A DNA stretch of 64,000 nucleotides from a virus. Of the stretch, positions 29,980 through 56,555 are shown in pieces. The DNA is taken from the IMG/VR virus record IMGVR_UViG_3300027777_000002, positions 1 through 64,000 of that record, one strand, 5' to 3'. Made by a program: the position numbers and the translations under genes. Below the pieces are notes generated by a model, which searched no databases, was not told where the DNA came from, and was given only the letters and a program-made list of their open reading frames with translations. The stretch's first letter is position 1. Each line of letters opens with the position of its first letter.

Positions 29980-32900
29980 GTGGCTACTAGATACTGGGTA
30001 CTCGGCTCAGGAACTTGGGATCTTACAACTACAACTAACTGGTCTGCCACATCAGGCGGTACTGGTGGTGCATCTGCGCCTACCTCAGCTGATGACGTTA
30101 TTTTTGATGCTGGTTCTAACGTAGGAACAGGAGCATTTACCGTAACTATTGGAGCGGCAGGTGCGGTATGTAGAGACATAAGTTTTGGCGGTGCTGGTGG
30201 CGCACTTGACGGTGTAATGACATTAGCTGGTAGTGGCGCATGGTCTGTCTATGGAAGTATGACCTTAGTATCCGCAAATTTAACTTTTTCATACGGCGGT
30301 ATTACAACTTTTGCGGCAACCACCACAGGTAAAACCATTACCACAGCAGCAAAATCATTTACTCTTGGCAACGGTATTATATTTAACGGTGTAGGCGGTG
30401 GTTGGACATTACAAGACGCTTGTACATTTTATAAAATAACTTTAACGGCTGGCGCATTAGATACAAATAACCAGACAGTTAGTTTATCAGCAGGTGTTAA
30501 TGGCTTTATTACATCAGGATCAACAACAAGGTCATTAACATTAGGAACTTCTACTGTTTCTTTGAGTGGAATTATTGACGCTTGGAGCGTATCATCAACA
30601 ACTGGTTTTACACTTAGCGCTGCGTCATCTACTCTTAATTTTACTGGTGGCTCCAACGATATAGTTGGTGGAGGTTTGACATACGGAACAATTACAGTAA
30701 ACGCAAGCAGCGGCACTATTGCTGGCGCAAACACCATTACCACATTAAATTTAAACGCTACAACAGGTACAAGTCTTACCATTAGTGCAGCACAAAATAT
30801 AACTACGCTTAACTCTACAACTCTTACAAGCGGCATAAATGTTATTACTTGTAGTGCAAATCAAACTATTGGCACTATTAATACTAATTCAAATGTATCT
30901 TTAAGAACTTTTTTTGTAAGTAACACATTAGGAACAGCAAGAACATTTACTATTACTACTAGACCCGTTTCTAATATAGATTTTAGAGATATAACAATTG
31001 CTGGTACTGTTCTAACGGGTACAAGTTTTGGTGATTGCGGTGGAAATAGTAACATTACGTTTGATGCAGCAAAAACGGTTTATTGGAATCTTGCAGGAAC
31101 ACAAAACTGGTCAGCAACAGGATGGGCAACTTCAAGTGGTGGTTCTCCAGCAGCAGCTAATTTTCCGTTAGCTCAAGATACTGTAACATTTGATAACACG
31201 GGATCTGTTACTGGAACAATTACAGTAAACGCAAGCTATAACATCGGCACCGTTAATATTACCAAAACTGGTTCTATGACGTTGTCCTTAGCTTCAAACA
31301 GGCCGCAGGTTTATGGAAGTTTTACCCTTGGGGCTTTAACAACGCTTACTGGCGGTAATGGACTTTTCTTATCTGGTAGAAGTACTACACAAACAATTAC
31401 TACCAACACAAGAACTTTTGGAAGCGCTAGCATTACTGTACAAGCATTAAGTAGCACCATAACTTTTGCAGACACTTTTACCACCACTGGCGCATTAACC
31501 CATAACAACGGAACATTAAATTTAAACAATTTAACAATTACCGCAGCTGGTTTTACGTCTGCATCAAGTTCTACTAGGGCTATTACTTTTGGCACTACTG
31601 GAGCTATCACAGTTAATGGATCTGGTAGTTTTTTTATTACAGTTGTTGCAACAGGACTTACTACTACAGGCACCCCAACACTTAACATATCAAATAACTC
31701 AGGAACAGCCAGTTCATTTTATTTTACAGGTTTTACAGAGTCAACCGCATTTAATGTAAATGTTACAACAGGAACATACACCCTTACTGAAGGTAGCAGC
31801 AGTGTTTACAAAAATTTAAATTTTACTGGGTTTGCAGGTACTTTTACAGGTTATTCTTTTGGCGGTAACACCATATACGGAAATTTAACAACGTCCACAG
31901 GCATGAGTTATTCTGCTAGCACTTTTGCCATGACATTTGCTGCAACTAGCGGAACACAGACTATAACGTCCAATGCCAAAACAATGGACTTTCCCATTAC
32001 ATTTAATGGATCTGGTGGCACTTTTCAGTTAGTAGATGCACTAACAAGCGGTTCAGGTAGAACCATGACTTTAACTAGCGGTACGCTAGACCTTAACGAT
32101 AAAACTCTTACAACGGGATTGTTTAGTTCTAGTAACTCAAACACTAGGTCTATTCTTTTTGGAACAACTGGAAATATTACTTGCTCTGGTACTGGTACTG
32201 TTTGGACAACTTCTACAATTACAAACTTTAGTTACACAGGCACATCTACAGTCAATTTAACTGATTCTAGTTCAACCCTTAGAAGCATAATTCAAGGTGC
32301 TGGAACTGCCGCACAAGCGGTTAGTTTTTATATAAAAGCTGGAACAGGACAAGTAAGTCTTACCACTACGAGCGGCGCATTTAAAGATATAGACTTTACT
32401 GGTTCAACTGCCATTCTTGGTGTTGGTAGCAGTATTAACTGTTTTGGAAACATTGTTTTAACAAACAACACAACAGCTAGTGGTTTTGGTCTAACCTTTG
32501 CTGGAACTAGCGGTACTCAAACCATGACTTCCAATGGTAAAACTTTTGATTGTGCTTTGACAATGAATGGTGTAGGCGGCACATTACAGCTTGTAGATGC
32601 CCTAACAATGGGTTCTACAAGAACATTAACCCTTACAAACGGCACATTTAACAGTAATGCTAAAAGCGTAACTGTAGGGGCATTTAACGCTAATAACAGC
32701 AATACAAAAACTTTTACTATAACTAACAGCACATTTACTGTATTAAGTGGCACTTCTACAAGTGGATTTTTATTAAATGGAGTAGGAACTACTTATAATG
32801 TTACTGGTTCTAATGTAGTATTTACTACTTCAACTGCGGCACAATATTGGGGTGGTGGTGGTTCAACTTTTCCTGCGGTAACAATGAGTGGTACAGGGCA

Positions 32901-34365
32901 ATTAATTATTGGTGCAAATGGGTCTACTTTAACTATTACAACTCTTTCAAATACTGTTCAACCTTGCACAGTTTCAATATTTAGCACAAATACACAGCTT
33001 AATGTCACCAACTTTAACCTATCAGGAACAGCAGGAAACTTAGTTACTTTTAACAGTTCTGTAGCAGGAACAGCAAGAACAATCAGTAAAGCAAGCGGAA
33101 CAGTAAGTTGTGATTATTTAAGCATTAGGGATAGCACTGCTACAGGTGGCGCTTCATGGTATGCAGGTACAAATTCAACTAACGTTAGCAATAACACGGG
33201 TTGGATATTTGCATCACCAGTAATCACCGTTGCCGTAACAGAAAATTTTTCAATTGCAGATAGTCCAAATGTAGTTGCAAGTTTTGTAGTCTCAATATCA
33301 GAAAGGTCAACTTTAGAAGATACACCCAGTGTAGTTGCCTCTTTTTTAAGCAATATAACAGAAAATTTTACAATAGAAGATAAACCCGTTTATGTAGCTG
33401 TTGCGGATATTACTGAAGGTACAATTTTAGCTGATACTTTAACGGGTTTAGCTACTTTTGCCACAGCTATTACCGAAGACGCTACTTTGGCAGATTCTTC
33501 TATTGTATTACGCACTGCTTTTGGAGACATATCAGAATTATTAATCCTAGCAGATACCCCAAACACAACCGCAGCTTTTTTAAGCAACGTTACAGAACCA
33601 TTAACCCTAGCAGATACCCCTGTTGGTAACGCCGTATTTGCCGGAATTATTACCGAAAACACCACTTTAGCGGATACGCAGTCTGTAAATGCAGTTTTTG
33701 CTTCCGCCATCACCGAGGCGGCTACTTTAGCGGATGCTCAGTCCGTTGTTTTAGCCATAGTATCTGACATATCCGAAGCCATAACCCTAGCCGATTCCCA
33801 GACCGTAATAGCCAACTTTGCTAGTGTGGTATTTGAGAATGTTGGGGTTGCAGAGTCCGAGTCGGTAGTAGCCAGCTTTACGGCAGTTATTTCAGAAGGA
33901 GCTGTTTTAGAAGATGTTGAGTCTGTTTTAGCTTCTTTCGTATCTAGTCTTTCCGAGGCTTTAACGGCAGCAGATAGTAGTATAGCCGTACGCATTCAAA
34001 ACTCCAGCATAACCGAAGACTTTCAACCGGCAGATACCCAAACCGCCCTAAGAATCCATAATGCCTTAATTTCAGAAAACCTAGTACCGGCAGACGCAAT
34101 TACCGTTATAGCATCTTTTAGTAGCCAGATAACTGAAAATTTGGTATTATTAGACAGCCCAATACTACGTGGCTGGTTTAAAATTAATGATGACCAGACC
34201 GTTTCTTGGGGTGCGGTAAATAATACAAATTCAGCAGCTTGGGCGGCTGTTAACGATGGGCAAACGGTGTCTTGGAATAACGTAAACAATGCAAATTCAA
34301 CCACTTGGACAAACATTGGGGACGATCAAAACCCTGTTTGGACTAGCGTAGACAACACGCAATAA
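29980..34365 (+). CDS. giant repeat tail-fibre/adhesin, 1461 aa
   Basis: The GTG start follows the previous stop by three bases. Residues 1-70 (WVLGSGTWDLTTTTNWSATSGG...DDVIFDAGS) form a domain that is repeated near residue 368 (YWNLAGTQNWSAT). Residues ~70-1080 are Thr/Ser/Gly/Asn-rich repeats like autotransporter beta-helices. Residues 1086-1403 are sixteen 20-residue units, and 1404-1461 are five 11-residue units. No signal peptide is seen, so it is a virion fibre rather than a secreted protein. It is the main candidate for host binding. Confidence 0.75.
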   Translation: MATRYWVLGSGTWDLTTTTNWSATSGGTGGASAPTSADDVIFDAGSNVGTGAFTVTIGAAGAVCRDISFGGAGGALDGVMTLAGSGAWSVYGSMTLVSANLTFSYGGITTFAATTTGKTITTAAKSFTLGNGIIFNGVGGGWTLQDACTFYKITLTAGALDTNNQTVSLSAGVNGFITSGSTTRSLTLGTSTVSLSGIIDAWSVSSTTGFTLSAASSTLNFTGGSNDIVGGGLTYGTITVNASSGTIAGANTITTLNLNATTGTSLTISAAQNITTLNSTTLTSGINVITCSANQTIGTINTNSNVSLRTFFVSNTLGTARTFTITTRPVSNIDFRDITIAGTVLTGTSFGDCGGNSNITFDAAKTVYWNLAGTQNWSATGWATSSGGSPAAANFPLAQDTVTFDNTGSVTGTITVNASYNIGTVNITKTGSMTLSLASNRPQVYGSFTLGALTTLTGGNGLFLSGRSTTQTITTNTRTFGSASITVQALSSTITFADTFTTTGALTHNNGTLNLNNLTITAAGFTSASSSTRAITFGTTGAITVNGSGSFFITVVATGLTTTGTPTLNISNNSGTASSFYFTGFTESTAFNVNVTTGTYTLTEGSSSVYKNLNFTGFAGTFTGYSFGGNTIYGNLTTSTGMSYSASTFAMTFAATSGTQTITSNAKTMDFPITFNGSGGTFQLVDALTSGSGRTMTLTSGTLDLNDKTLTTGLFSSSNSNTRSILFGTTGNITCSGTGTVWTTSTITNFSYTGTSTVNLTDSSSTLRSIIQGAGTAAQAVSFYIKAGTGQVSLTTTSGAFKDIDFTGSTAILGVGSSINCFGNIVLTNNTTASGFGLTFAGTSGTQTMTSNGKTFDCALTMNGVGGTLQLVDALTMGSTRTLTLTNGTFNSNAKSVTVGAFNANNSNTKTFTITNSTFTVLSGTSTSGFLLNGVGTTYNVTGSNVVFTTSTAAQYWGGGGSTFPAVTMSGTGQLIIGANGSTLTITTLSNTVQPCTVSIFSTNTQLNVTNFNLSGTAGNLVTFNSSVAGTARTISKASGTVSCDYLSIRDSTATGGASWYAGTNSTNVSNNTGWIFASPVITVAVTENFSIADSPNVVASFVVSISERSTLEDTPSVVASFLSNITENFTIEDKPVYVAVADITEGTILADTLTGLATFATAITEDATLADSSIVLRTAFGDISELLILADTPNTTAAFLSNVTEPLTLADTPVGNAVFAGIITENTTLADTQSVNAVFASAITEAATLADAQSVVLAIVSDISEAITLADSQTVIANFASVVFENVGVAESESVVASFTAVISEGAVLEDVESVLASFVSSLSEALTAADSSIAVRIQNSSITEDFQPADTQTALRIHNALISENLVPADAITVIASFSSQITENLVLLDSPILRGWFKINDDQTVSWGAVNNTNSAAWAAVNDGQTVSWNNVNNANSTTWTNIGDDQNPVWTSVDNTQ
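33235..34188 (+). repeat. sixteen 60-bp (20-residue) repeats in the giant fibre
   Basis: Each unit follows [IV][ST]E-x4-[LIP]xD-[ST]-x2-V-x-A-x-F-x-S-x. Examples are ITENTTLADTQSVNAVFASA and ISEAITLADSQTVIANFASV. Fifteen units are exactly 20 residues and the third is 18. Protein identity is clear while the DNA has drifted, so the array is old rather than a recent slippage. Confidence 0.85.
34189..34362 (+). repeat. five 11-residue Trp repeats at the fibre C-terminus
   Basis: DDQTVSWGAVN, NTNSAAWAAVN, DGQTVSWNNVN, NANSTTWTNIG and DDQNPVWTSVD follow one another without gaps, with Trp at position 7 of each, ending NTQ. They alternate two sub-types, so the true period may be 22. Confidence 0.85.
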
Positions 34366-34377
34366 TAAGGATACACA

Positions 34378-35631
34378 ATGGCTAGTACCTACTCACCGTC
34401 TTTAAAAATAGAGCTTATTGGTAATGGCGACCAATCTGGTACATGGGGAACTACGACTAATAACAACCTTGGAACCCTTGTAGAACAAGCAATTACCGGC
34501 GTTCAAAGCATTGTAATGAGTAATGCAAATTACACCCTAACTAACTATAACGGGGTGTCTGATGAAGCACGAAATGCGGTTTTGGTAGTAACTGGGACTA
34601 ACTCAGCTATACGGCAAATTATCTGCCCCTTGGCAAACAAAGTATATGTTGTCACTAATAACACTACTGGCGGCTACGCTATTACTATTGGCGGGACTAC
34701 AGGAACTACTGTGACTATTCCTAACGGGGTTACTGCTCAAGTTTATTGCGACGGCACAAATACATATTCTGCTCAAACCGGTTCGGCTGGTAACTTTACT
34801 GTAAACGGCACTTTAACAGCTACTGGGTTAACTGATACAGGCAATATGAGTGTTGGTGGTAATTTGGCGGTTACTGGCTCGTTTCAATCTTCTACTGGGT
34901 TAGGCTCGTATGCTGCAGGCTCGTTTACTGGCAGCATAGCTACAACAACGCTAACTATTACTGCGGTTGCTAGCGGGCAATTATTTGTTGGGCAAACTAT
35001 TTCAGGTACGGGTGTTACTTCCGGCACTACCATAACTGCGTTTGGTACAGGTACAGGTGGGGTAGGAACGTACACCGTTAGCGTTTCTCAAGCAGTTGCT
35101 AGCACAACCATTACGGGCGCTGCAGCAACAACAGCTTTGACGCCTACTTCTGGTGATAACTCGGTAAAAATAGCAACAACGGCTTTTGTTACTGCGGCTT
35201 CTAGTGCATTTGCTGCTGGAACCGTACTTTTATTCTATCAAGCAGCTGCTCCTACTGGGTGGACACAAGTAACCACTCAAAACAATAAAGCATTAAGAGT
35301 TGTATCAGGTACTGGGGGCGGTACTGGCGGTACTGTTGCTTTTACTACAGCTTTTGCTAGTCAGGCAGTAGCTGGTACTGTGGGTACTTCAGGTGCCACT
35401 ACACTTTCAACTGCGGAAATGCCAGCCCATACACACTCATATGCTTTGGCAAGTGGTAGTTTTACTGCTCCTATTGGTTTTGATACCTATTTTTATCTTA
35501 GCACGGTTTCAGCCACAACGGGCTCACAAGGTGGTGGTGGTTCACATACCCATACAGGTGGTACATTTACAGGTACGGCAATTAACCTAGCCGTTCAATA
35601 TATTGATATTATTCTTGCGAGTAAAGACTAA
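34378..35631 (+). CDS. tail fibre with collar-like tip, 417 aa
   Basis: N-terminal domain [34 protein letters not shown] is a frequent phage fibre base. A shared beta module lies at ~180-250. The C-terminus (AAPTGWTQ..., [31 protein letters not shown]) is the His-rich collar/needle type tip found on receptor-binding fibres. Likely an adsorption protein. Confidence 0.8.
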
Positions 35632-48131: not shown

Positions 48132-51100
48132 ATGCCGTATTTACCATTACCCAATGGGTCTTATGTTGAAGTGCCAAAAGGTTTATCTGATGAAGAGGCG
48201 CTTAAGTTAGCAAAAGAACAATTCCCTGAGGGTTTTGAAGATTACGCTAAGCATAAAGAAAAAACTGGCTTTTTTCCAGCACTTACTTCCGGTTTTAAAA
48301 CTGGCGCTGGCTCTTATGCACAGGGCATAGGCAATACAGCAAATCTTGAAGGCGTAAACAAATACGGCACAGAATTAAAAAAAGCCGGTGAAGAAGGTTT
48401 TCAAAGTACTACTGACCAAGATATAGAGATTGCCAAACGTCAAGGCATTACATCTTTACTTGGTACCGGACTTAGCAAATATATTACAGAACCTGTTGGC
48501 GGAATGCTTGGTAGTCTTGCCGGTCGTTACGGTGCTCCTATTGCTGCTAACACTGTTGGGCGTGTTGCCGGTCCTGTAGTAGGCGCTGCAGCTTTTGCTG
48601 CTACAAACTTCCCTGCATATTTAGGTGAATTTGTTCAAGCACAAAAAGAGAAAGGTCAAGAAGCTGACTTTGGTAAAGCATTAGTACCCGCATTAGTTTC
48701 TACCGTTGTTGATTCTTTAGGTAACGAAATTGTTGGCGGAGCTATGAAAGGCTTTGCTTTAAGAACGGCAACTCAAGAAGCTAAACTACTAGCACCTAAA
48801 GTATTAAGCGGTGAACTTGGGGCACAAGAAGCTGCCGCACAAATTTCTGGCAAACTATCTAACGTATTAAAAGGCACGGTTGAAGCGGCTGGTGCTGGTG
48901 CTGCGTCTGGTATAGCCAATGAAGCGGGTCGTTTATATTCTATTGGCAAAGATATATTTAGCCCTGAAGCTTATGAACAATATATTCAAGCCGCTAAAGA
49001 TATGGGTATGGTTGCTCCGTTTTTTGGTTTGCTTCGTATGGGCGAGCCACGCAGAGCTAAAAAACTTATTGATGAAGCCGGTAAAAAAGTAGAGAGCGAA
49101 AAGCTGGCTACAGAAAAAGCTGCCGCTGAAGCAGAACAAAAAGCCTACCGTGAAAGCCCGGAAGGTATAGCGGAAATGGCGCAGCAACGCACCACGTTAG
49201 AACAACAAATTGCCGATCTTAAAGCTGTACTCAAAGATAAAACTTTACCTGATGAAGAGCGCCTTTTGGGTAAAGAACAAATAGGTGATCTGTATAAGCA
49301 GCTAAACGAACTTAAAAAACAAACTGGCGAAGTTGAAGAAAAACCTAGTACGCTTGAAGGCCGTTTAGAAGAACTACGGTTAAAGCGTGAGCAAGAAGCT
49401 ATAGCCGCACAACAACAAGAACAGATAATTAAGCAAAAAGAAATTGATGACGCAGCCAAAGCTGAAGAATTAAAACAAGGCGCTGAAGTTATTAAACAGA
49501 ATCCCGATTTAGCCCAAGCTGCTCATGCGGAACTATATAAACAAGTTGACGATCTTGAAACTCGTCTGCGTGACGCTGCCGAAAACGGGGACGTTGAAAA
49601 AGTAAAAAAAATTGGTGAAGAATACGACACAAAATTAGCCGCCTTACAAAGATTGCAAGCGCACGGTAAAGAAGCCGGTATTAGTTTTGAGCCGTTAGAA
49701 AAACAATTGGCTGCTGCTAAAAGACAGCTAGCAAACGTAACTAAAAAACTGGCTGATGACAAAGTATTAGAACCCGGTAAACGTGAAGAAATGGCTGCCG
49801 CAGTTGATGCTGCTAAAGCTAGAGTAACGGCTTTACAAGGGTACATTAATGATTTAAACCGCCGTGATGTGTTGCGTGGCGAAGAAAAAGCTGAACTCCC
49901 TAACCCTAAAGACTATCGTGATATTCCCGAAGAGGAGCGCATAGCTAGATTAGTTGGTATTAAAAGCGATAACATCAAATATCGTCAAATGCTTGATACA
50001 GACACTTTAACTAAAGTTGCAGATGATTTAGATAAAAATAAATTAAACAAAGAATCAGCAAACGCATTAGGTTTACCGGCTGGGCAAACTGCTTGGTATT
50101 TTGATAAGGGGCCAACCAAAAAAGTAGATACGCTACGTAACCACGTAGCAGAAGCACTTGCAACGATTGAAGAAGATGCAGCGTTTGCCAAAGCGCACAA
50201 CTTGCAGATAGAACCGGATGCTCGTGTTGGTGTATTAACAAACTTGTATGAAAAATTAAACGCTATAAAGCCGGCAGAAGGAGAAAAAGCCCCGACTTCA
50301 GCGGTTAGTTTATTGCGTTCTGCTAGAGGAGAACAACCGTACCTACAATACGTTGCTAAAAAAGCGGCGGCTAAACGTTTAAAACTAGAGGAGCCTAAAC
50401 TAAAAGAAGGCTACCGTCCAGAACATTTAGAACGTATTCGCAAAGAAATTGCGGATATTGAAAACACATTAAAAATTGATGAAGATCAAGCTAAAAAAGC
50501 TAAGAAAAAAAACAAAAAAGCCGGTAAGTTTGCAGTAGAGATTGTTCAATATAAACAACTTACTAAAGATGAAAAAGCGCGTATGCTGCGCCGCAAAGCA
50601 CGTCTTGAACAAGATTTAGAAGATGCGCAAATGCAGGGTGAGTGGAAAGCTACAGAATCCTTAAAAATTCAAGCTGCGTTAGAAGATGTAAATTTAAAAA
50701 TTGAAGACGCTAAAAACAACCCAAAAACAAAAATAACAAAGAACGGGGTAGCCAACCTACTTAACCTTAAAAAGCGTTTAGAACTTGATTTAGCTAAAGC
50801 GCAACAAGGTGAGTTTGGACAGTTAGCTGGGGCGCCTACGCCTAAAGGTACGGTAGCGGGTGAGCAGGCTGTGCCTGCTAAACGTCAAGAAACTGCCATT
50901 TCTGAAATTATTGACAATATTGATTCGTTGCGTAAAGGCGAGTTTTTTGGTGGTACCGCTGGTAAAGAAGGCCTTTTAGAAAGCAGATCTCGTGAAGTTA
51001 TTTTGCGTTCTATTCGTAATGAAATTGACACGTACGCTGCTGGCGCTATTACGGAAATTAATGCTGGGCGCCGTAGTAACGACTTGCCCGACTTAACAAA

Positions 51101-54100
51101 GCAAGAAGAGAATACAGTACGTACCGTTGTTGAAGTGTATCTTGGAACTAAAGCTGAACGTGCTACAGGGTATCGTGCGACTCGTTTGCGTGCTCAAGAA
51201 AAAGGCGCCGCTAAGCTTACTCCTGAAGATACAGCCATAGCTGAAGCATTTGAAAAAGCCGGATTTGAAGGTGCAAGCGAATTAACTAAAAAGCAAAAAC
51301 AAATTATGCAGGCTGTTGGTATTGATCCAACAGAATTTGATGGGCACTCATCAGCTGAAATACAAGCGCTGTACAACCGTGTTAACTTTGTACAAAAACA
51401 ATACGACGCCGCTTCCGCTGGTTTAGAAAAAGCGCAAGTTTCGGGCGATATTGATGCGCAAAAACAATTTAAAGTTAGAAAAAACAAACTTAAAACTCGT
51501 CTTGACGAAGTTAAAGCTAAGTACGATACCGCTACAAAAGCGTTTGTTGAAGGCGCAGAAGAAGAAACAGGTGTAATTCGTACGGGTGTTAAAAAAGAAG
51601 AAGCTGATGAAATTTTAAACAGACTTAAAGCTCTTAAAGAAGCGTTTGGTTCTAAAGCGTATAAGTATAGAGAAGCGCCTGCTATTACCGCCACTAAGAT
51701 GGGCGAGACTAAAGACATTAATGTAACACCAAAAGAAGCTGATACGGCAAAACTTTTAAAAGAAGGCGAGAAAAAAGCTGCTCGTGAAACAGGTCTTGGA
51801 CTACCCGGTAAACGAGTTACTACTCAAGTATCTACCGGCACAATATATGAAACCGATTTAGTCAATGCCGATAAAACAGCTAAAAAACTTGGTAATTTGT
51901 TTAAAAAATCTAACGACCAACTAAAAAGCGAAAATGAGCGTGAAGCTGCCCGTAAAGTATATGAAGAGGCACTTGAAAAAGATGGTAAACGTTTAGAAGA
52001 TTTAGGCTTTGGTGACGTAAAAGACGAAGACAGTTTAGCGGGTATGCTGCTTGCTCGTGCAAAACTTGACGACCCTAAGTCGGCAGAATACAAACGTTTA
52101 ACCGACAGCATTAATAAAGAACAAAACTCGTTGCGTGAAGCCGCCGCCAGAATAACTAAAGCAGAACGTTTCAAAAAAGATATTGGCGAAAGCTCAATAG
52201 AAAAAGAAGAGAAAGCTAAAGCACTACAAGCGGAACAACTTGAAGAGTCTAAACGCACCGTTGAGCGTAGAAAAAATCGTGTTACTGAAAAACAACGTGC
52301 TGCAATTAAAGCAACTGTTGAAAAAGAACTTGCGGCTGCTAGAGCTAAATTAATTAAAAAAGTACCCGATAATGCTACGGCAGCGCAAAGAAAGTCTATC
52401 AACGCAGCCAATGACAAAATTCGTATTGAAAGACAAACTTTAGAAGCTCAGCTCGATATTATTAATGGCGGTGATTTTGAGGCGTTGCGCACTCGTGGCA
52501 AGATTAAAGAAGAAGCTTCTGACCGTTTGTATAAAAAATCTGCTTTTGAAAAAGAAGAAGATAAGAAACTTCGTGACGTAATAGAGAAAGATGAAAAAGG
52601 CATTGAATTAACTGATGCTGAAGAAAAAATTTATACTGACGCTTCGTCTAAAGGAATTAATGCCGAAGGATGGTTAAAAGGCGAAGCAGAAACCACAATA
52701 AGAGCTATTGATGAAATAAAGCAAAAATATTTAGACGAAGCAGCTACCAAAAAAGAGCTTATATATTACGTTGACACTCTTAGAAAGTGGCGCGGTATTG
52801 CTCGTAAAAAAGAACAGCGCGCTGACTTTTTATATTTAGACAAACAAGTAAAAGACGTATCAAAACGCCTTAAAACTTTACAAGAAGAAGCCGCTGCCCC
52901 AGCTTTAGAAAAACATGCTGCTCGTGAAGAAGCGGAATATGCCGCATCGCCAGCCGGTAAGAAAACTGCCAAACGTATTGGGTTTGTTAAAAAGCGTATT
53001 GCTGAAAAAGAAACAAAGAAAGCGTTTGCGTCAGCCGCTGAAATGTATGAAGCTGAAATGCTTAAAGCACGTAAGGCTGGTTTTCAATCTCCCGAAGAGA
53101 TGGAGCGTTATATTCGCAACGCCAGCAAGTCAATGGACGTTGAAGAAAACACACGAGATATACGTAATCTATTTGATAGAGACCTTTCAGAGTTAGATTA
53201 CGATAACTATGACGATTTTGGTAACGTGTTCCGTTTAGGCTCAAAAGAAAAAACTACGGCAAACCTTAAAGAAACACGACGTGTTGCTGACGAGTTTAAA
53301 GCTAAACTGCCTGAAGGAGTTAAGTTTGAATACGCTGATACTGCAGTAGAGTTGCCTGACTATGTTCGCCGTCAAATTTCTAAAGAAGAAGCGGACATAA
53401 TGAAGGGTGCCGTACTTAAAGACGGTACTATTGTTATTGTTGGCGACACGCACAAGACTATGCTGGACTTTGAAAAAACGTTAGCACACGAAGCTGTTGG
53501 ACACTACGGATTAGATCGTTTGCTTGGGCTAGAAGGTATGGTTAATTTAGCTAAGCGCATTGAAGCACAGCCCGGCGGGTTTGTTCGTATGTCTAGAGAA
53601 CTTGGCGTACTTGATGATGTTATGCACGCTATTAGAGAAGCTAGAAAGAGCGACCCTAATCTAACGCCTGAACAAGAAATGATGGTGGGCGTGCGTGAAA
53701 TGATTGCGCACTTTGAAGAACAGCGTTTAGATAGCAAAAACTTTTTACAAAAAGCTCAACGTTTTATTAAAGAGTTAATAGGTCAGTTTAAAGATTGGCT
53801 ACGTAAAAACAATTTAATGGAGTTAAGTAAGGTTACTGACGCCGACTTATTGTTTGTGCTTAAGCGTTCTAAAGAAGCAATGGAAAGCAGAGGCGGTTTA
53901 CGTTCCGGCGATATTGGCATGGAAACTGCTTTCCGTAAAGCTAAACCTACTGACAGCAACGATCCGTTGATGCAGCTTTCTAACACATTAGTTGCTAAAC
54001 CAAAAACAGTTACCGAATCTTTTAAAGGCAACTTAGCGGCTTTTAATACGCAGTTTGTTGATCGCCTAGCGCCAATTAAAGAGATATGGCGCCGTATGGG

Positions 54101-56555
54101 TGAAAATGCGGCATCTTCACAAATGATTTACAAACTACTGTCTCATGGACAGCGGACTAACATTACTAGTGAAACTTTGGTAAACGGCGCTCGTGTGTTT
54201 TACACCGACCCAACTACAGGCGAAGTAACTATCCGTGCGTCGGGTGGACCCGGCATGAAACAAGTTTTAGATGAGTTGCTTAAGTCAACTAAAGGTAATC
54301 CTGAAGCGTTAAATCAAATGTTTACTGCATATGCTGCAGCTAAACGTGCTAAAAGCGTTGGGTTTGAAAAACTGGTACGTGACGGTGAAATTGACGGTAA
54401 CAAAATTACCAAAGATATGCTGGCTGCCGCTGAAAGATCAGGCGATGCGGACCCTGCGTTTGTTAAAGCGTTTGAAACATATCAAAAATATAACCACGGC
54501 TTAATTGATTCCTTAGCTAGTTCTGGATACATATCTAAAGATAGTGCGGCTAAGTTTAAAGCTAAAAACTACATACCTTACTATCGTGCTCGTGGCGGTA
54601 ACGTAGATTTAATCATTGGTAACGAGTCTCCAATTCGTATTGGTTCTTTAAAAGACCAACCATATCTACATGAACTAGTTGGTGACAACACAAAGATTCA
54701 AGACTTTTTCCGTACTTCTGTACAGAACACCAACATGATTACTGAAATGGCTTTGCGCAATGATGCAACAGCCAGCGTAGCTAACACGTTAAAGAATCTT
54801 GGAATTGCTGAAATTCATAAAGGTAGCGGGCCAGCAGGACCAAACGTAATACGGTTTAAAAACGATGGTAAGGACTACCACGCTGTAATTGATACATCTA
54901 AAAACGCCGAGTTTAGCGATATTAGCTCAGAGCTTTTAGTTAAAGGTTTAGAAGGCATACCTACTCAGCTTCCGGGTATTGTGCGTTTGCTTGGCATACC
55001 GGCTAACTGGCTACGTAAAGGCGTAACACGTAACCCATTCTATGCGTACAAACAGTTAGTGCGTGACCCAATATCCGCTTGGTTAACATCAGGCGCTGAT
55101 TTTGTGCCTATTTTATCGTCGCTTAATGAGATTAATAAAGCCGTACGTGGTCAAAGCGATACAGCTAAAAAATTACAAGAAGCCGGTATTTTAGGTGGGG
55201 AAATTTACACAGGGCGTGCAGAAGATTTAAATCAAATTGTTACTCGCCTTAAGTCAGGCAAAGCTAATTTAAATGGCGCTATGGCTTTTATGGATAGAGT
55301 AGCTACTGAAGCAGATGCGTCCACTCGTTCTGTTATATACGAAAACTATCGCAAGCAAGGCTTGTCAGATATGGAAGCGCAGATTGCCACAATGGAGTCA
55401 ATGAACTTCAATACTCGTGGTGCGTCGCCTTCTATGCACTGGGTTAACACAATGGTGCCGTTTTTTAATTCGGCGATTCAAGGCTACAACGTAATGTATA
55501 AAGCGTTTAGTGGCAATATGCCTTACGCTAAGCGTTTAGAGTTGCAAAACAAATTAATAAAACGTGGCTCAATGATAATGGGTATGTCTATTTTGTATGC
55601 TATAGCGCAACAAGATAACGAAGCGTATCAAAACGCTACGCCTGAACAGCGTTACATGAATTGGTTTATACCCGGCATGGGCAAAGATGGTAAAGAATCA
55701 TTTAGATTGCCAATCCCGTTTGAAATAGGTTATATATTTAAAGCGTTACCTGAAGCTATTGTACGTATGGCTTATGCTGACGACAAAGCTAAAGAAGGCT
55801 TAGATGCAATTAAGACTGTATTGCAAGCAACTAATCCTATTGGAATACCCACCGCTATTAAAGCACCGCTTGAAATTGCTATGAACCGTTCAGTGTATTC
55901 AGGGGCGGAAGTAGAAAGCAAACGTTTGCAGGGGTTAAGACCAAACGAGCGTTATTACGATACGACTACAGAAGTGGCTAAGTTAATTGGCGGTAATCTT
56001 GGAGAGGTTGGTAACTTCTTTGGTATATCACCAGCTAAAATAGACTACTTAGCTAAAGGGTATTTTGGTGGGCTGTATACAACCGTTGCTACATTGGTAA
56101 ATCCTTTAATCGCCGATATACGCGGTGATAAATCTACTGTAAAACCTGACGGCACAATGGCTGATTTGCCTGTGTTTGGTCAAATGTTCCAACCTAAAGA
56201 TGCTGGCGGTCTTACTATGAAAGCGTACGATGTTTTAGAAAAAGCATCGCAGTATTCTGAAACATATAAGCATTTCCAAGAAACGGGCGCTGAAAAAGAA
56301 GCTGAAGAATACGGCAAAAAATACGAACAAGAAATTAATATTGGTATGGGCGCTGCTAGTATGAAAGCTGAGTTAGATCAGTTGTCAGGACAAATTCGCA
56401 AAGTAAAAGAACAGCGTTTACCTTCCGGTATGGATTCTAAACAGTTTGCAATTCAAAAACGTGAACAGTTAGATGAATTGATGCGAACTAGAGCAAAACT
56501 AGCAAAACAATTTAGTGCCCAGATCGCCGAAACAAAACGCCAATCTTCCCGTTAA
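48132..56555 (+). CDS. giant ejection/polyvalent protein with peptidase-like motif, 2807 aa
   Basis: The N-terminus LPLPNGSYVEVPKGLSDEEALKLAKEQFP is a known opening of internal virion proteins. Residues ~50-330 include Gly/Ala-rich putative membrane segments. Residues ~330-1700 are mostly charged coiled coil. A zincin-like motif HEAVGH (HEXXXH, 1786-1791) lies in LAHEAVGHYGLDRLL. The last ~850 residues (YRARGGNVDLIIG, FYAYKQLVRDPISAW, MVPFFNSAIQGYN) resemble LPD-type polyvalent domains. It is probably delivered into the host with the DNA and may act as a T7 gp16-like channel plus effector. Confidence 0.8.
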   Translation: MPYLPLPNGSYVEVPKGLSDEEALKLAKEQFPEGFEDYAKHKEKTGFFPALTSGFKTGAGSYAQGIGNTANLEGVNKYGTELKKAGEEGFQSTTDQDIEIAKRQGITSLLGTGLSKYITEPVGGMLGSLAGRYGAPIAANTVGRVAGPVVGAAAFAATNFPAYLGEFVQAQKEKGQEADFGKALVPALVSTVVDSLGNEIVGGAMKGFALRTATQEAKLLAPKVLSGELGAQEAAAQISGKLSNVLKGTVEAAGAGAASGIANEAGRLYSIGKDIFSPEAYEQYIQAAKDMGMVAPFFGLLRMGEPRRAKKLIDEAGKKVESEKLATEKAAAEAEQKAYRESPEGIAEMAQQRTTLEQQIADLKAVLKDKTLPDEERLLGKEQIGDLYKQLNELKKQTGEVEEKPSTLEGRLEELRLKREQEAIAAQQQEQIIKQKEIDDAAKAEELKQGAEVIKQNPDLAQAAHAELYKQVDDLETRLRDAAENGDVEKVKKIGEEYDTKLAALQRLQAHGKEAGISFEPLEKQLAAAKRQLANVTKKLADDKVLEPGKREEMAAAVDAAKARVTALQGYINDLNRRDVLRGEEKAELPNPKDYRDIPEEERIARLVGIKSDNIKYRQMLDTDTLTKVADDLDKNKLNKESANALGLPAGQTAWYFDKGPTKKVDTLRNHVAEALATIEEDAAFAKAHNLQIEPDARVGVLTNLYEKLNAIKPAEGEKAPTSAVSLLRSARGEQPYLQYVAKKAAAKRLKLEEPKLKEGYRPEHLERIRKEIADIENTLKIDEDQAKKAKKKNKKAGKFAVEIVQYKQLTKDEKARMLRRKARLEQDLEDAQMQGEWKATESLKIQAALEDVNLKIEDAKNNPKTKITKNGVANLLNLKKRLELDLAKAQQGEFGQLAGAPTPKGTVAGEQAVPAKRQETAISEIIDNIDSLRKGEFFGGTAGKEGLLESRSREVILRSIRNEIDTYAAGAITEINAGRRSNDLPDLTKQEENTVRTVVEVYLGTKAERATGYRATRLRAQEKGAAKLTPEDTAIAEAFEKAGFEGASELTKKQKQIMQAVGIDPTEFDGHSSAEIQALYNRVNFVQKQYDAASAGLEKAQVSGDIDAQKQFKVRKNKLKTRLDEVKAKYDTATKAFVEGAEEETGVIRTGVKKEEADEILNRLKALKEAFGSKAYKYREAPAITATKMGETKDINVTPKEADTAKLLKEGEKKAARETGLGLPGKRVTTQVSTGTIYETDLVNADKTAKKLGNLFKKSNDQLKSENEREAARKVYEEALEKDGKRLEDLGFGDVKDEDSLAGMLLARAKLDDPKSAEYKRLTDSINKEQNSLREAAARITKAERFKKDIGESSIEKEEKAKALQAEQLEESKRTVERRKNRVTEKQRAAIKATVEKELAAARAKLIKKVPDNATAAQRKSINAANDKIRIERQTLEAQLDIINGGDFEALRTRGKIKEEASDRLYKKSAFEKEEDKKLRDVIEKDEKGIELTDAEEKIYTDASSKGINAEGWLKGEAETTIRAIDEIKQKYLDEAATKKELIYYVDTLRKWRGIARKKEQRADFLYLDKQVKDVSKRLKTLQEEAAAPALEKHAAREEAEYAASPAGKKTAKRIGFVKKRIAEKETKKAFASAAEMYEAEMLKARKAGFQSPEEMERYIRNASKSMDVEENTRDIRNLFDRDLSELDYDNYDDFGNVFRLGSKEKTTANLKETRRVADEFKAKLPEGVKFEYADTAVELPDYVRRQISKEEADIMKGAVLKDGTIVIVGDTHKTMLDFEKTLAHEAVGHYGLDRLLGLEGMVNLAKRIEAQPGGFVRMSRELGVLDDVMHAIREARKSDPNLTPEQEMMVGVREMIAHFEEQRLDSKNFLQKAQRFIKELIGQFKDWLRKNNLMELSKVTDADLLFVLKRSKEAMESRGGLRSGDIGMETAFRKAKPTDSNDPLMQLSNTLVAKPKTVTESFKGNLAAFNTQFVDRLAPIKEIWRRMGENAASSQMIYKLLSHGQRTNITSETLVNGARVFYTDPTTGEVTIRASGGPGMKQVLDELLKSTKGNPEALNQMFTAYAAAKRAKSVGFEKLVRDGEIDGNKITKDMLAAAERSGDADPAFVKAFETYQKYNHGLIDSLASSGYISKDSAAKFKAKNYIPYYRARGGNVDLIIGNESPIRIGSLKDQPYLHELVGDNTKIQDFFRTSVQNTNMITEMALRNDATASVANTLKNLGIAEIHKGSGPAGPNVIRFKNDGKDYHAVIDTSKNAEFSDISSELLVKGLEGIPTQLPGIVRLLGIPANWLRKGVTRNPFYAYKQLVRDPISAWLTSGADFVPILSSLNEINKAVRGQSDTAKKLQEAGILGGEIYTGRAEDLNQIVTRLKSGKANLNGAMAFMDRVATEADASTRSVIYENYRKQGLSDMEAQIATMESMNFNTRGASPSMHWVNTMVPFFNSAIQGYNVMYKAFSGNMPYAKRLELQNKLIKRGSMIMGMSILYAIAQQDNEAYQNATPEQRYMNWFIPGMGKDGKESFRLPIPFEIGYIFKALPEAIVRMAYADDKAKEGLDAIKTVLQATNPIGIPTAIKAPLEIAMNRSVYSGAEVESKRLQGLRPNERYYDTTTEVAKLIGGNLGEVGNFFGISPAKIDYLAKGYFGGLYTTVATLVNPLIADIRGDKSTVKPDGTMADLPVFGQMFQPKDAGGLTMKAYDVLEKASQYSETYKHFQETGAEKEAEEYGKKYEQEINIGMGAASMKAELDQLSGQIRKVKEQRLPSGMDSKQFAIQKREQLDELMRTRAKLAKQFSAQIAETKRQSSR

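Follow-up and report, generated by a model that had tools for sequence, protein, structure and literature searches.

A giant structural-type gene of an uncultivated aquatic virus of bacteria ends in a long run of 20-residue repeats followed by shorter tryptophan-containing repeats, raising the question of what these repeats build and what part they play in the phage. The DNA analyzed here (the window) comprises 64,000 of the 66,558 bases of the virus record IMGVR_UViG_3300027777_000002, and terminase, portal and capsid genes were found in it. Its portal is 34–45% identical to those of DSL-LC04, Planktothrix phage Pag-Yong1 and Pelagibacter phages HTVC027P and HTVC023P, a range that also covers Roseobacter phages CRP-901/902 and Caulobacter phages, which places the window phage in the neighborhood of the HTVC023P-like podoviruses. 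Phage DSL-LC04, whose genome was assembled from metagenome data, has a terminase that clusters with those of Pelagibacter phages (PMC10611076).

Repeat architecture of the window protein

The gene that hosts the module (29980–34365, + strand, GTG start) encodes 1461 aa. Its Ser/Thr/Gly-rich N-terminal part (29980–33234, + strand; MATRYWVLGSGTWD...) is probably beta-helical, judging from composition, and its only similarities among the loci fetched are to the L001 and L004 giant proteins and to a stretch of L235/L236. Elsewhere in the window, a single open reading frame of 2807 aa (48132–56555, + strand) is without a PHROG match in its first 589 residues.

The 20-residue array occupies residues 1086–1403 (33235–34188, + strand, 954 bp) and consists of 16 tandem units, 15 of 20 aa and one (unit 3) of 18 aa. 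Unit 16 continues into GWFKIN, and the GWFKIND box (34171–34191, + strand) spans the end of this unit and the start of the Trp part. The latter (residues 1404–1461; 34189–34362, + strand) contains five 11-residue units of the DDQTVSWGAVN type, followed by NTQ. The original prediction, made from the sequence of the window, had described 16 repeats of 20 residues and five of 11 residues at 33235–34362, and its coordinates and register were right, with unit 3 as the one shorter unit. Its description of a nearly exact register over 954 bp that gives way to a Trp repeat running to the protein end was likewise borne out: 110 of 296 positions in the array match the position one unit away, more than twice the best value (52) obtained in 10,000 shuffles over all periods from 5 to 59. 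The self-match of the Trp part is stronger at period 22 (46%) than at period 11 (26%), indicating that the 11-mers alternate in pairs; the period-22 value was reached by 0 of 10,000 shuffles and the period-11 value by 7 of 10,000. DNA identity between window units one apart is 46%, so the array is old and not a product of recent slippage.

Neither the window protein nor the module could be assigned to a family by searches of Pfam, NCBIfam, PHROGs and PDB sequences, in agreement with the earlier remark that the 20-residue unit matches no repeat that can be named. Using tblastn, the 20-residue module had no match in INPHARED or PLSDB, and deposited relatives were reached only through the Trp tail and the neighboring gene. 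Literature searches returned no description of these repeats. Relatives gave scattered matches (OSCP, RAD24 and ORC6 among them) that differed from one member to the next, and we took these to be chance.

A family of mostly stand-alone proteins

We identified 66 distinct homologues with a GWFKIND box, nearly all from IMG/VR; this set takes in the window and one match from genome_contigs (L113), which lies on a 62.8-kb contig that carries the same neighbor gene and a terminase match and is therefore most likely a binned phage contig. Later scans yielded mostly loci on already known contigs. A position matrix located 729 units in the 66 homologues, nearly all exactly 20 residues apart, compared to 1.6 units per protein in shuffled sequences. 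Across these homologues, E3 (0.89), D9 (0.88) and F17 (0.81) are strongly conserved, positions 1, 5, 7 and 17 are hydrophobic and position 13 is partly so.

Most relatives are separate proteins of 220–400 aa that share with the window the 20-residue E3/D9/F17 units, the GWFKIND box, the C-terminal Trp units and the downstream fiber-domain gene. They differ from it in having no giant fusion and in opening with an N-terminus of their own, so that the stand-alone layout reads MFGxxxFAxxPFAxLGG, 7–16 repeat units, GWFKIND box and 1–5 Trp units. A pattern for the MFG...FA..PFA.LGG segment matches 54 of the 59 non-fused members. In the window, this segment is replaced by the giant N-terminal part, which marks the window protein as a fused variant. 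Among the loci examined, the module is fused to a giant protein only in the window, L001 and L003/L004, and the description of the repeats as the tip of a giant fiber thus applies to a rare arrangement. The copy-number comparison in related phages that the original prediction had proposed revealed a ladder of 7, 8, 9, 10, 11, 12, 13 and 16 units in the stand-alone proteins, with 12 as the mode (34 of 59).

The window and L001 are 74% identical. Counting complete 20-mers only (the 18-residue unit left out), units 9–15 pair one to one, while several best matches in the N-terminal half are shifted, with window unit 4 being closest to L001 unit 8 (95% at the protein and 83% at the DNA level); these shifts indicate that entire units have been exchanged, or gained and lost. 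Unlike the old window array, the protein at L031:5932–6834 contains near-identical adjacent units (NETQTLTDAKSVLAAFIAAQ), and such units in L031 and some other relatives suggest recent homogenization or duplication. The phage at L004 encodes both a giant protein with the module at its end (L004:3001–6849) and a miniature stand-alone copy of 140 aa (L004:2406–2828) with a few units and a WGTIDNSESTVW end. L034, L036, L087 and L100 have an insertion of about 30–35 residues (...FGGFTFGGVPMAGS...) that separates the first Trp unit from what follows.

A conserved neighbor gene and a second repeat class

The gene that follows the module in the window (34378–35631, + strand) was assigned as a tail-fiber type protein on the basis of PHROG tail-fiber matches; it has a conserved N-terminal domain (MAS[ST]...). 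A strict pattern recognizes a gene of this type directly after the module in 59 of 66 loci, and three of the misses (L049, L055 and L065) proved to be of the same type by inspection of their sequences. The gap between module and next gene is usually within ~15 bp, and the module sits in the tail-gene region beside the fiber gene.

The DSL-LC04 counterpart (L203:9269–10399) has a different, 22-residue repeat (VTGVQATGxVG), but it ends in Trp units of a similar type and is followed by the same tail-fiber domain gene. Of this 22-residue class (L203 and L205–L284), 55 distinct members were examined. Wherever over 300 bp of sequence lies downstream, the same domain gene follows (44 of 44 loci), and 39 of 51 members with a complete end have at least two Trp units by a strict pattern. 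The MFG-type motif also opens some 22-residue members, such as L262 (MFARSPFSSAPFS) and L275 (MFGFFPFASSTFS). The class is represented in cultured Pelagibacter phage HTVC023P by the pair gp68–gp69 (LLGITAISQSPIASLGG...TWTEV...TWTKV), of which gp69 is annotated as a putative tail protein; HTVC027P gp68–gp69 is a looser counterpart. Like the module, HTVC023P gp68 and DSL-LC04 WJZ48131.1 stand directly before the tail-fiber domain and carry C-terminal Trp repeats, and gp68 begins with the same N-terminal motif as the stand-alone 20-residue members, but their repeat of ~22 residues (VTGVQ) is unrelated in sequence to the 20-residue unit. The ends and the neighbor therefore stay in place while the repeat type changes. 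The pairing is not obligatory, as the tail-fiber neighbor occurs without a module directly upstream in Planktothrix phage Pag-Yong1 and Roseobacter phage CRP-902.

Predicted fold of the 20-residue array

The AlphaFold2 monomer model built from 53 sequences is a regular three-sided beta-solenoid with one coil per 20-residue unit, in line with the solenoid suggested by the original prediction. Coil after coil, the model has a short strand (unit residues 5–8), a longer strand (residues 12–17) and, at residue 1, a bridge. The core would be lined by residues 1, 5, 7, 13, 15 and 17, while E3 and D9 would stack into two acidic ladders that border the first strand. The pLDDT was 66–75 over residues 1–160 and dropped under 50 for the final coils and throughout the Trp part, with a modest overall confidence (mean pLDDT 60 and pTM 0.48). 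A coil-per-unit solenoid had also come out of an earlier model from 26 sequences, at a lower mean pLDDT of 52. The closest solved structure was 3p4g (VIA-align Z 25.4, rmsd 1.9 Å over 239 residues; next best Z 17.7). Because the Foldseek E-value for 3p4g (0.012) is not significant and regular solenoids superpose easily on each other, this match supports the fold class and not kinship. Structure-predicted matches were also obtained to UniProt 'uncultured Caudovirales phage' proteins (for example, A0A6J5N9D9 and A0A6J5PBZ6), which have the same 20-residue units, are 22–28% identical and stand as uncharacterized. On these models, the array is predicted to be a parallel beta-solenoid with 20 residues per coil.

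Many tailed-phage fibers are trimers, and the unit might instead need three intertwined chains to fold, giving a stacked beta stalk of the kind found in other phage fiber shafts and leaving the monomeric solenoid as an artefact of single-chain prediction. The modest confidence of the monomer model would be compatible with such a stalk. We nevertheless regard it as rather unlikely, since both monomer runs converged on the same coil-per-unit solenoid, the unit shows the hydrophobic/polar alternation that a closed coil needs and none of the three signatures searched for in the module (GXY of collagen, RTX and pentapeptide) was found.

Conservation along the protein

In the stand-alone proteins, conservation is 0.63 at the N-terminus, 0.35–0.51 over units 1–11, 0.65 in unit 12 (the last) and 0.78 in the GWFK box. 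No aligned sequence departs from GWFKIND, and the W positions are almost as constant; this box and the last unit are conserved more strongly than any other stretch of the family. Such a profile, with better preserved ends than middle, is more readily explained by a spacer that docks at either end than by a stalk that carries a receptor-binding tip.

This profile bears directly on the earlier proposal that the Trp repeats serve as a distal grip, which would bind the receptor with the solenoid as the presenting stalk. Their C-terminal position, their exposed-type aromatic repeats and a copy number varying from 1 to 5 would suit a grip. The host-recognizing tip of a phage is, however, usually its fastest-changing part, whereas here the box is invariant and the Trp end is retained even when the whole solenoid type changes. 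A receptor-binding role for the Trp repeats is accordingly improbable.

Comparison with known solenoids

The window solenoid is strongly acidic, with 41 acidic and 5 basic residues, and the nearest solved fold is a Ca2+-dependent one. Region IV of Marinomonas primoryensis MpAFP (PDB 3p4g) contains 13 repeats of 19–21 residues with an RTX-like consensus (PMC3492233) and forms a Ca2+-bound antifreeze beta-solenoid of similar coil size. As a variant of the tail-rod explanation, with which it is not exclusive, the array could be a rod stabilized in the same way, in which the E3 and D9 ladders, conserved at ~0.9 over the 729 units, bind divalent ions between coils so that folding takes place only in Ca2+-containing water. 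The module differs from 3p4g in sequence (7% identity), in the absence of the xGTGNDxuxuGGxuxGxux consensus and in organism and role. RTX or hemolysin-type membership was rejected, as GGxGxDxUx nonapeptides number 0 in the window and GGxGxD occurs in 0 of 66 relatives; D9 could merely cap a turn. While the modeled acidic ladders make a divalent-ion role possible, an obligate Ca2+-stabilized rod is quite doubtful.

Pentapeptide-repeat solenoids also have 20 residues per coil, but they show four equal five-residue faces as opposed to the two long strands and bridge per coil of the module model. Weak sub-threshold Pentapeptide_4 matches occur in a few relatives; for PF13599, the two relatives' matches examined score 19–20 bits against a cut-off of 38, and the window has no match. 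Membership was rejected, as no tandem A(D/N)LXX run is present in the window or its relatives. Pentapeptide proteins such as MfpA and Qnr are DNA mimics, and the strong negative charge, the 20-residue coil and the weak Pentapeptide_4 matches might suggest that the stand-alone proteins are likewise acidic solenoid mimics acting on host enzymes and lying in the tail operon by accident; the fusion to a giant fiber-like protein, the constant tail-fiber neighbor, the hydrophobic N-terminal motif and the missing A(D/N)LXX runs make this highly improbable.

Proposed architecture and role

We propose, with a probability of about 0.5, that the 20-residue units build a rigid and strongly acidic rod, a beta-solenoid belonging to the tail-fiber apparatus of an HTVC023P-like podovirus and carrying putative docking ends. 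Its presence in the particle is a reading of gene order, since literature searches found no virion proteomics for any member. At ~0.48 nm per coil, the sixteen predicted coils of the window would give a rod of ~7–8 nm. Such a rod would normally stand alone between the MFG...FA..PFA.LGG segment and the GWFKIND and Trp-repeat segment, and both conserved segments may be docking ends, one of them attaching to the tail or another fiber protein. The GWFKIND/Trp end would dock on a conserved partner, most simply and probably the product of the next gene. Between the ends, the array would serve as a spacer that grows or shrinks in steps of whole units and for which the 22-residue repeat can be substituted. 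In the window phage, with the MFG segment replaced by the giant, probably beta-helical protein, the rod and Trp end would become the C-terminus of a single long fiber.

A broader and somewhat more tentative idea, to which we give slightly less than even odds, is that aquatic podoviruses share a 'plug-in rod', in which the ends and the partner fiber gene are constant and entirely different solenoid repeats (the 20-residue E-D-F or the 22-residue VTGVQ type) are exchanged and lengthened coil by coil, tuning the length or surface of the fiber while leaving its attachment points untouched. The module is probably an exchangeable tail rod named in no annotation library searched; the fold type (beta-solenoid) and the role (tail-fiber part) are already known kinds. 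These results provide an identity, and an architecture open to testing, for a class of proteins that is common among aquatic phages, relatives of SAR11 phages among them, and HTVC023P gp68–gp69 offers a cultured system for it. If both ends truly dock, the class would show how phages swap fiber rods and adjust their length.

Repeats of the VTGVAGTGAVG type are also present in CRP-902 gp53 (L285:4461–5387), a protein of another layout that ends in WGNNAWGNGTWGNGL, and VTGVQ-like repeats extend beyond the present family.
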